From NCBI RefSeq assembly GCF_003601975.1, contig NZ_QZWZ01000010.1, forward strand, positions 124,001 to 188,000: 64,000 nucleotides of DNA, in the 5' to 3' direction. The notes under the pieces were generated by a model. That model saw nothing but the letters and a program-made list of their open reading frames with translations. It was not told where the DNA came from and did no database searches. Position 1 is the stretch's first letter; each line of letters begins with the position of its first letter. This DNA comes from Mesorhizobium waimense (lineage in GTDB: Bacteria > Pseudomonadota > Alphaproteobacteria > Rhizobiales > Rhizobiaceae). A program made the translations under genes and the position numbers. Below are positions 8,072 to 29,577 of this stretch, in pieces.

Positions 8072-8166
8072 CGAAACGTCTCCTCAATGCCCCGTGAGAG
8101 TGGGGTCCATGACAGTGGTCGCGAGCCTATGCCCTTTGTCTTGCGCGAGGCTGGCGGGCACAGACA

Positions 8167-8835
8167 TCAGAACACCAGCCGGTAGCCGAGGAAGCGCTTG
8201 GAATCGATCGGGTCGTGGCCGAGCTTTTCGCGCAGCTTCTTGCGCAGCTTGCTGATATGGCTTTCCACCACGTTCTCCTCGACCTCCTCGTCGAAGATGC
8301 CGTAGATGGCGTTGAAGACCTGGGTCTTGGTGACGCGCCGTCCGCGATTGCTGGCCAGATATTCGAGGATGCGGCGTTCGCGGCGCGGCAAGGGCAACGG
8401 CTGGCCTTCGATCTCGGGATCGCGGCCATCCATGAAGATGCGCATCGAGCCGACCTCGGTATAGGCGACGTCTTCCTGAGCGCGGCGGCGGATGGCGGTG
8501 ATGCGGGCCAGGATTTCGCGGATGTGGACCGGCTTGCGGATGACGTCGTCGACGCCGCTCTCGAACAAGCGCAGCGTGTTTTCGAGCGAGTGCTGCTCGC
8601 TCAGCGCAATGACAGGTGCGCCGGTGCGGTCACGGATCTGGCGTGGAGAGATTGCACCTTCGCGGCAGTCGCCGATGAGGAAGGCTCTGACCGAGCGCAG
8701 ATCGATGTCGGCCGCCGAGTTCACCCATTCCCCGAATTCGCCTGGAGCGAAGCCGGCACAGGCGACGCCTTCGCGATCGAAAAGTGAGTTGTAGCCTTCA
8801 GTTACGAGCTCTCGCTCGTCAACGATCACGATCAT
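8167..8835 (-). CDS. ftcR: Flagellar OmpR-type response regulator FtcR/Rem
   Basis: This 222-residue orphan response regulator matches the FtcR (Brucella) / Rem (Sinorhizobium) master activator of late flagellar genes. The receiver looks complete: acidic pair Asp6-Glu7, candidate phospho-acceptor Asp56, Ser79 and Lys101 (VIRKPVH). A winged-helix DNA-binding domain follows (about 125-222) with [13 protein letters not shown] as recognition helix and FLGYRLVF at the end. No histidine kinase gene is nearby. It sits between the transglycosylase gene and flgE as in other rhizobia. Upstream, 8836-9068 is an AT-richer non-coding stretch that should contain its promoter. Confidence 0.9.
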
Positions 8836-16080: not shown

Positions 16081-16159
16081 GATTCAACGGCTCCCAGTAA
16101 GACTGTCCGTGGGAACACTAGACCGCGAAGCTTGTGCGAGGATGATAGGCGGAAACGAA

Positions 16160-17139: not shown

Positions 17140-17158
17140 GGCATGCCTCGCGCATGCC
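17140..17158 (-). promoter_or_regulatory. Leader hairpin of flagellin gene 1
   Basis: GGCATGC (17140-17146) pairs with GCATGCC (17152-17158) around a 5-base loop. It lies 21 bp upstream of the TTG start and immediately before the ribosome binding site, where it could affect mRNA stability or translation. A role as an FlbT-responsive element is inference. Confidence 0.5.
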
Positions 17159-17215
17159 GGTCAACCTGTTCGGCGAAAGCGTCATGCCTGTCGACCAACT
17201 GGTGGTCTGCCCGTC

Positions 17216-24721: not shown

Positions 24722-24815
24722 GGGAATCTCCGGGCGGGTACGCACAAGACTAGGCTGCCAGTCTTGCGCGGACCTTGCGCTGAGCCTGTGTCAGCAGGGC
24801 GCGGCCCTGCCGCGG

Positions 24816-27749: not shown

Positions 27750-28526
27750 TCAGAACCTCAGTTTCTGCATGGCCATCATCAGATCGGTCGATATGCCGAC
27801 CGTGGTCGGCTGGGCGAAGAGCACGCTGACCGATGTCTGCGCCGTCGAGGTCGGGTTGTTGATCTCCCACATGCTGGTGAAGCGGGTGAGGAACTTGCTC
27901 AGCTTTTCGGGGTCGGCGAAATCGGCGATGTCCAGCTTCTGCTCGAACGCCTGCGCCTGCTTGTCGATGTCGGCGGAGGCGAAGGAATCGGGCAGGCCGA
28001 GCGCGTTGCGAACCACGCTGGCAAGCGCAGTATCGGCAAGCACGTCGTACCAGTTGGTGATGCTGGACGCCTTGCGGTCGAAGTACAGCGCCAGCCGCAC
28101 GCCTTCATTGGTCTCGCCGGCATTTTCCTCCAGCGTCTGGCGCATGTATTTGTCGACCGTGCCCTGCTGGGCGGCGGGGAACAGCGTGGCGGTATCGTCG
28201 TAGGCGGCGAAATTGAACGCCTTGACGAATTCGGCGTAGCGCTTGTCGGTCAGCTTGTTGGCGAAGCTGTCCTCGTCGGCGACGCCTTCCTTCAGTGCCT
28301 TGACCATGAATGCCTTGGCATAAGCCATGTCGCCGAGGCCGAATGCCTTCATGGCATAGGTGAAAAGGCGGGTGTCCTTGACGAAATCGTCGATCGTTTT
28401 GACGTTGCCGATGTTGGCAAGATAGTAATCGGTGTCGCGCTTCACGACGGGCTGTGCCTCGACCTGGTCGAGTGCCTTGGGGATGTCCTTGGCGATAAGC
28501 TGGTAGCTCGTATAGGTGTTCAACAC
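27750..28526 (-). CDS. DUF1217 flagellar-cluster protein
   Basis: A 258-residue DUF1217 protein, a family found in alphaproteobacterial flagellar clusters. It opens LNTYTSYQLIAKDIPKALDQ and has recurring helical blocks (FVKDTRLFTYAMKAFGLGDM; FVKAFNFAAYDD), ending MMAMQKLRF. The biochemical role is not established. The start is the GTG at 28526, with GGAGG six bases upstream; the open frame extends further upstream but through the promoter region. It is first in the long minus-strand operon ending at fliP and diverges from motA. Confidence 0.82.
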   Translation of the reverse strand: MLNTYTSYQLIAKDIPKALDQVEAQPVVKRDTDYYLANIGNVKTIDDFVKDTRLFTYAMKAFGLGDMAYAKAFMVKALKEGVADEDSFANKLTDKRYAEFVKAFNFAAYDDTATLFPAAQQGTVDKYMRQTLEENAGETNEGVRLALYFDRKASSITNWYDVLADTALASVVRNALGLPDSFASADIDKQAQAFEQKLDIADFADPEKLSKFLTRFTSMWEINNPTSTAQTSVSVLFAQPTTVGISTDLMMAMQKLRF

Positions 28527-28576
28527 GCTGCGCCTCCGGCCGAAGCTATCCCTGGACAATAGCCTCACTTCCTTGC

Positions 28577-28624
28577 GCGAAGCTGAATCGGTGTCGGACA
28601 TGTTCGCGACACTCAGTGCTTCGC
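28577..28624. promoter_or_regulatory. Nested dyad in the divergent flgF/motA operon promoter region
   Basis: Two inverted repeats are nested around the same centre: outer GCGAAGC (28577-28583) with GCTTCGC (28618-28624), inner GTGTCG (28591-28596) with CGACAC (28607-28612). The centre is about 75 bp before the DUF1217 start and 101 bp before the motA start. The symmetry suggests a shared operator, possibly for VisNR or FtcR (inference). Confidence 0.55.
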
Positions 28625-28701
28625 GACATCGGGGATTCAAGCCTCACACAAGGCACGGAGACTATCCGTTGATGCTGAAGTGACATGCGGAAGGATCTTG
28701 C

Positions 28702-29577
28702 GTGGGCATTCTGATCGGACTGGTGGTGACGCTCGGCTGCGTTCTCGGCGGCTTCATGGCCATGGGCGGCCATCTTCATGTGCTGATGCAGCCGTGGGAA
28801 GCGGTGATCATCTGCGGTGCGGCACTTGGCACCTTTCTCGTCGCCAACCCGATGAAGACCGTCAAGGATACCGGCAAAGGCATTCTCGAAGCCTTCAAGC
28901 AGGCTGTACCGAAGGAGCGGGACTATCTCGAAACGCTCGGCGTATTGCACAGCCTGATGCGCGAGCTACGGTCCAAGTCACGCAGCGAGGTCGAGGCGCA
29001 TATCGACAATCCGGAGGAATCGGCGATCTTCCAGGCATTCCCGACGGTGCTGCACAACCATGACCTGACGCATTTCATTTGCGACTACTGCCGCATCATC
29101 ATCATCGGCAATGCGCGCTCGCATGAGATCGAGGCGCTGATGGACGAGGAGATCCATACTATCAAGACCGACAAGATGAAGGCCTATCATGCCCTGGTGG
29201 CGGTGGGTGACGGCCTGCCTGCGCTTGGCATCGTGGCCGCCGTGCTCGGCGTGGTCAAGGCGATGGGCGCGCTCGACCAGTCGCCGGAAATCCTCGGCGG
29301 CCTGATCGGCGCGGCGCTTGTCGGAACCTTCCTCGGCATCTTCCTGTCCTATGCGCTGGTCGGGCCGGTCGCCACCAAGATCAAGACCGTGCGTGAGAAG
29401 CGGAACCGGCTCTACATCATCGTCAAGCAGACCTTGCTGGCCTATATGAACGGCGCCCTGCCGCAGGTCGCGATCGAGTTCGGGCGCAAGACCATCTCGT
29501 CCTACGAGCGGCCGACGATCGACGCCGTCGAGCAGAGCACGATGAACGCCGGCACGGCCGAGAAGAAAGCGGCCTGA
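28702..29577 (+). CDS. motA: Flagellar stator protein MotA
   Basis: MotA is the proton-channel stator subunit. The 291-residue product has four hydrophobic segments (about 2-22, 30-48, 170-195, 205-228) with a large cytoplasmic loop between 2 and 3, and the conserved [20 protein letters not shown] stretch. The start is GTG at 28702 preceded by GAAGGA. It heads the plus-strand motA-fliM-fliN-fliG-flhB operon, while its partner MotB is encoded about 15 kb away. Confidence 0.95.

Follow-up and report, generated by a model that had tools for sequence, protein, structure and literature searches.

Back-to-back candidate Rem boxes, rather than a nested dyad, between the divergent orf38-flgF and motA operons of Mesorhizobium, and their recurrence in the flagellar regulon and the family

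Rem is described as an OmpR-like regulator with no obvious partner kinase that is activated by VisNR (PMC8429497; PMC9812332; PMC4018554). In S. meliloti the class II genes activated by it are described as including orf38, fliM and assembly genes, and the described target of VisNR is rem (PMC8429497). For FtcR of Brucella a ChIP-derived motif, TGTGGGCA, is given (PMC9456535), and sites of the OmpR/PhoB family are described as typically being direct repeats 11 bp apart, centre to centre (PMC3798270). A printed consensus of the Rem box was not found in the literature searched, Rotter 2006 and Tambalo 2010 being out of reach. The available text of the S. meliloti start-site map (PMC3616915) contains no flagellar motif, and that of the Agrobacterium start-site paper (PMC10469942) no Rem motif.

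The window, the 64,000-nucleotide stretch of Mesorhizobium DNA analysed here, contains two divergent motility operons separated by a short gap. The original prediction placed this gap between the flgF and motA operons, which is true of the operons, but the gene adjoining the gap on the left is orf38, with flgF behind it. This first gene of the flgF operon encodes a DUF1217 protein (27750-28526, - strand; Pfam PF06748, E 5e-59). Its GTG start at 28526 was chosen in our analysis from the GGAGG upstream, and provided that orf38 starts there the predicted gap size of 175 bp is correct. On the right lies motA (28702-29577, + strand), which scores above the cut-off of NCBIfam TIGR03818. VisN and VisR are both encoded in the window, as is a response regulator of the Rem/FtcR type (8167-8835, - strand) with a receiver and a Trans_reg_C domain (OmpR/PhoB type), the candidate binder of the boxes described below. 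Its neighbours in the window are SLT, FliK and MotB, a neighbourhood as described for FtcR homologues (PMC8639532).

A nested dyad had been reported at 28577-28624 in the gap, and the letters and coordinates of all four arms were confirmed. The outer arms are GCGAAGC (28577-28583) and GCTTCGC (28618-28624), extendable to 8 nt (28576-28583 and 28618-28625), and the inner arms are GTGTCG (28591-28596) and CGACAC (28607-28612). However, the two pairs do not have the same centre, as had been claimed; their axes are at 28600.5 and 28601.5, 1 bp apart. Under a strict common axis there is no nested dyad in 28524-28701 (178 bp), and when an offset of up to 1 bp is allowed the reported dyad is the only one. 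With that offset a nested dyad was present in 0.6% of 4000 dinucleotide-preserving shuffles of this interval. Such symmetry is thus unlikely by chance in one chosen gap, as predicted, but not over a window; four nested dyads occur in the 64 kb (in 3 of 359 fixed blocks), so one is expected somewhere in a window. An arm of at least 7 nt within a span of 60 bp was seen in 33% of 4000 shuffles. The folding energy computed for the dyad as RNA is about -24 to -25 kcal/mol, with a z of -2.4 to -2.8. No terminator-like site was found in 28400-28800, and Rfam gave no match to a known structured RNA in 28300-28900 up to E 1.

Positions 28400-28850 were used as query in a DNA search against 24 other genomes of the genus. 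The gap region was matched in 21 of these, and a weak match to the motA side was obtained in one genome of another family. After orientation, the alignment showed two strongly conserved blocks, here called boxes, with a spacer between them that cannot be aligned. This first set comprised 24 loci, the fragment L025 being left out of alignments and counts; a second set of 80 loci, overlapping with the first, was found via MotA in catalogued genomes. Both boxes were present in 22 of the 24 loci (the exceptions being L023 and L024) and in 77 of the 80. The three of the second set without both strict boxes (L167, L189 and L193) are, like L024, second motA genes in loci that gave no match to orf38. 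All four copies have kept the motA box and lack the left box, and thus each box belongs to its own gene.

The original prediction had itself named a lack of arm conservation between related strains as the finding that would tell against the dyad. All four arms are present in the window alone among the 24 loci, and in none of the 77 loci with both boxes. The left outer arm was found in 27 of the 77, because it overlaps a conserved box. The right outer arm and both inner arms sit inside a hypervariable spacer (28590-28633), which is 44 nt long here and 12-46 nt (median 15) in the 77 loci; between the boxes there is no conserved sequence. The right outer arm is shared only with M. amorphae CCNWGS0123, which has both outer arms and misses the inner pair. 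The locus nearest by MotA (99% identical), that of M. amorphae CCBAU 01570, has neither the right outer arm nor CGACAC, and its spacer measures 23 nt versus 44 nt in the window. As the window spacer contains a 9-bp direct repeat (28603-28611 and 28620-28628, at a distance of 17 bp), a small duplication or deletion probably explains this difference in length. The 46-nt spacer of locus L150 carries, by eye, an unrelated inverted repeat of its own, showing that long spacers can bear symmetries without conservation.

The dyad was consequently rejected as an operator, its four arms occurring together in 0 of 77 loci. It was also rejected as the strong hairpin that had been proposed for either leader; besides being unconserved, it lies upstream of both predicted -10 elements (see below) and would therefore be part of neither leader. 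Judged by these comparisons, the dyad arose by ordinary coincidence in a spacer of unusual length.

The two boxes are inverted, measure 21-22 bp and flank the spacer, one for each divergent operon. The conserved box of the orf38(DUF1217)-flgF-fliI operon (28569-28589, - strand) reads GATTCAGCTTCGCGCAAGGAA in the sense of the operon, and that of the motA-fliM operon (28634-28655, + strand) reads GATTCAAGCCTCACACAAGGCA, with an 11-bp direct repeat of a CAAG half-site. Read in the direction of the operon to which it belongs, each block in the window consists of GATTCA(A)GCYTCRCRCAAGGMA followed by CTAT. The core is of the YYTCRCRCAAG type and has a fixed distance of 9 nt to a -10-like CTA, which belongs to CTATTG (28557-28562, - strand) in the predicted orf38 promoter and to CTATCC (28662-28667, + strand) in the predicted motA promoter. 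The TA lies exactly 9 nt past CAAG in 77 of 77 loci at motA and likewise in 77 of 77 at orf38. A simple scan for the sigma-70 consensus gave no sites in 28400-28800.

The window was scanned with a matrix derived from the boxes of motA and orf38. Sites with a box and a -10 element were recovered upstream of flgE (8127-8154, - strand, between rem and flgE; rank 3), fliF (16118-16145, - strand; rank 5) and flgB (24750-24777, - strand; rank 6). The flgB site has the clearest 11-bp direct repeat, CGCAAGGTCCG CGCAAGACTGG. Rank 4 was taken by 17145-17170 (+ strand), close to flagellin genes that lie on the opposite strand, which counts against the Rem model. Of 17 loci, the window among them, 15 have the flgE site, 16 the fliF site and 16 the flgB site, and the CAAG-to-TA distance was exactly 9 nt at 14 of 15 flgE, 16 of 16 fliF and 16 of 16 flgB sites. 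Conversely, when only these three sites went into the matrix, the boxes of motA and orf38 came 4th and 5th in the window, next after the three sites themselves. When the half-site was compared with the sequence 11 bp upstream, the mean match (of 6 positions) was 4.0 at motA, 3.7 at flgE and 5.0 at flgB, where the direct repeat is clear. It was only 2.1 at orf38 and 2.25 at fliF, where the repeat is weak, and this counts against the Rem model.

In the complete genome (8.15 Mb) the pattern YYCRCRCAAG-N9-MTA has 11 matches, 6 of which stand in a single flagellar cluster in front of flagellar operons (flhA, flgE, fliF, flgB, orf38 and motA). The reversed control gave 13 matches, so that only the clustering exceeds the control; looser patterns were too common to serve alone. 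In approximately 57 kb of the flagellar cluster of S. meliloti Ak57, six distinct matches were found, all upstream of flagellar operons. They precede flgB, motA, fliF, flgE, flhA (placed by tblastn) and the operon that contains motB, and the reversed cluster sequences contained no match. At orf38 of S. meliloti the core is present and the TA at 9 nt is absent, which again counts against the Rem model. A box upstream of rem was found neither in the window nor in S. meliloti. The record carrying this cluster, CP090106.1 (3.7 Mb), is titled pSymB of S. meliloti Ak57; it is chromosome-sized and the title looks wrong. In the same record an IS4-like ISRm16 transposase gene lies between flgB and the flagellar protein gene behind fliI.

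For the breadth in the family, 60 of 100 genomes with MotA (the window's included) were chosen before their upstream DNA was seen. One genome per genus was taken from the top of the identity ranking, with some skipped, and one distant genome was added; the most divergent genomes of the family were mostly left out. The strict core was present at motA in 59 of the 60 genera, at orf38 in 52 and at both in 51, versus 0 and 0 in reversed sequences. With one mismatch allowed the numbers rose to 60 and 58, but those of the reversed control also rose, to 5 and 14. Of the 52 orf38 boxes in this set only 32 have the TA at 9 nt, which counts against the Rem model.

Rem was detected (E <= 1e-40) in all 61 flagellated genomes outside the genus, i.e. 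60 of the family and G025 of another family. Orthologues were found in 62 of 65 genomes searched, the three misses being genomes without the gap region; these three Mesorhizobium genomes thus lack both the region and Rem. At E <= 1e-12 VisN went undetected in 14 of the 61 genomes, 13 of them in the family. Of these 13 family genera, 12 have retained the strict motA box. The strict orf38 box is present in 6 of the 13, versus 46 of the 47 genera with VisN, a difference not accounted for by a pure Rem model; we read this loss as drift in a divergent lineage. In several genera without detectable VisN (L244, L246, L247, L263 and L265) the left box has one-mismatch forms, e.g. CTGGCGCAAG, and the motA box is strict.

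Among the genome matches listed, the recurrent one outside the cluster lies upstream of an open frame of 58 residues with no Pfam match. This frame (G000:C230:195-368) is located outside the window, begins with MERFVEDYQKRR and is kept in 23 of 25 genomes of the genus. Upstream of it stands the direct-repeat box GCAAGTTCCACGCAAGC. Of the 20 Mesorhizobium genomes with Rem, 19 have both CAAG half-sites intact; none of the three without Rem has, although the latter have retained the 58-residue gene. In these three genomes 15, 11 and 16 of the 21 columns of the box are kept, and 49, 50 and 49 of 59 other conserved upstream columns. The decay of the box is a modest excess and its link to Rem only suggestive; the breakage in the three genomes may represent only one or two independent losses. 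Among 24 further genomes of the family that were matched by the 58-residue gene, many of them weakly, the strict box with TA was present in 3.

The boxes are conserved, have a fixed spacing, recur at flagellar operons and co-occur with Rem. We consider it probable that the gap consists of back-to-back class II promoters carrying candidate activation sites for Rem (FtcR group), as the sequence comparisons suggest. Each box, with the core YYCRCRCAAG, would stand in for a -35 element, with the -10-like CTA at a fixed distance, and is best viewed as a pair of CAAG half-sites arranged head to tail, roughly one turn of the helix from each other. We infer that a dimer of Rem, an orphan OmpR/PhoB-type protein (FtcR/LafR/ActR group) whose gene lies 20 kb away in the cluster, binds each box. 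Each Rem site would overlap its own -35 region, and Rem bound there would recruit RNA polymerase. The orf38-flgF-fliI and motA-fliM operons would then be switched on together with flgE, fliF, flgB and flhA. The idea of the original prediction that a single regulator coordinates both operons from the gap is thereby retained, although not through the dyad but through the other, conserved boxes. Of the binders it offered, FtcR stands as a candidate, with the orthologue Rem as best supported through these boxes, whereas VisNR is disfavoured as the direct binder.

The LuxR-type pair VisN/VisR might bind the boxes directly in the place of Rem. Both proteins are encoded in the window, and genera with VisN have the strict orf38 box more often than those without; an operator of VisNR should co-occur with VisN. 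Such an operator should also precede rem, the described VisNR target (PMC8429497), yet rem has no box in the window or in S. meliloti, and the strict motA box persists in 12 of the 13 family genera without detectable VisN, even if the orf38 box nonetheless correlates with it. Because the motA box persists and rem is boxless, we regard direct binding by VisNR as very unlikely; direct repeats 11 bp apart would, moreover, suit a protein of the OmpR/PhoB type. Alternatively, the box could be the -35 half of a promoter that a special sigma factor reads without an activator at that site. The fixed 9 nt to the -10-like CTA would also suit a bipartite promoter, and the simple scan revealed no ordinary sigma-70 promoter. 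This we consider very unlikely, as the half-sites are repeated at 11 bp at motA, flgE and flgB, and Rem is described as activator of these genes (PMC8429497; PMC9812332; PMC4018554).

That the dyad is after all a functional operator or hairpin, specific to the lineage of the M. amorphae group, seems highly improbable. It is matched by only 0.6% of the shuffles, its fold has a z of about -2.4, and M. amorphae CCNWGS0123 retains both outer arms. That strain lacks the inner pair, however, and M. amorphae CCBAU 01570 lacks the right outer arm and CGACAC. Furthermore, the arms are off-centre, the window contains four such dyads and this one lies upstream of both predicted starts.

In place of a strain-specific symmetry, a compact definition is obtained of the likely Rem target site in rhizobia and relatives, and the divergent pair of candidate Rem boxes generalises to the predicted regulon and to the family. 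We give an even chance to the joint proposal, namely that a previously undescribed Rem DNA code shared by the family (head-to-tail CAAG half-sites, 9 nt to the -10) defines the early flagellar regulon of about sixty genera and takes in the 58-residue gene outside the cluster. If the definition of the target site is right, the direct Rem regulon would be predictable from sequence, and it would be explained how genes of the flagellar base and of the motor are switched on jointly from a single gap. Direct targets of Rem could be separated from those of VisNR, and members outside the cluster could be found.

Compared with known systems, the box differs from the Brucella FtcR promoters in that it does not match the ChIP motif as given for FtcR; TGTGGGCA is absent from both strands of the whole window, which counts against the Rem/FtcR model. 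The regulators nevertheless belong to one orthologous group, and fliF, described as a direct target of FtcR (PMC9456535), carries the box here. Direct repeats at the 11-bp distance of OmpR/PhoB-family operators (such as the ArcA and PhoB boxes) are clear at motA, flgE and flgB and weak at orf38 and fliF, and the half-site here has a different sequence, with a CAAG core. The VisNR-Rem class II promoters of S. meliloti and R. leguminosarum are similar in having the same operons, the same gene order and a Rem orthologue in the cluster, and in the VisNR-Rem cascade of S. meliloti the same box precedes the flagellar operons.
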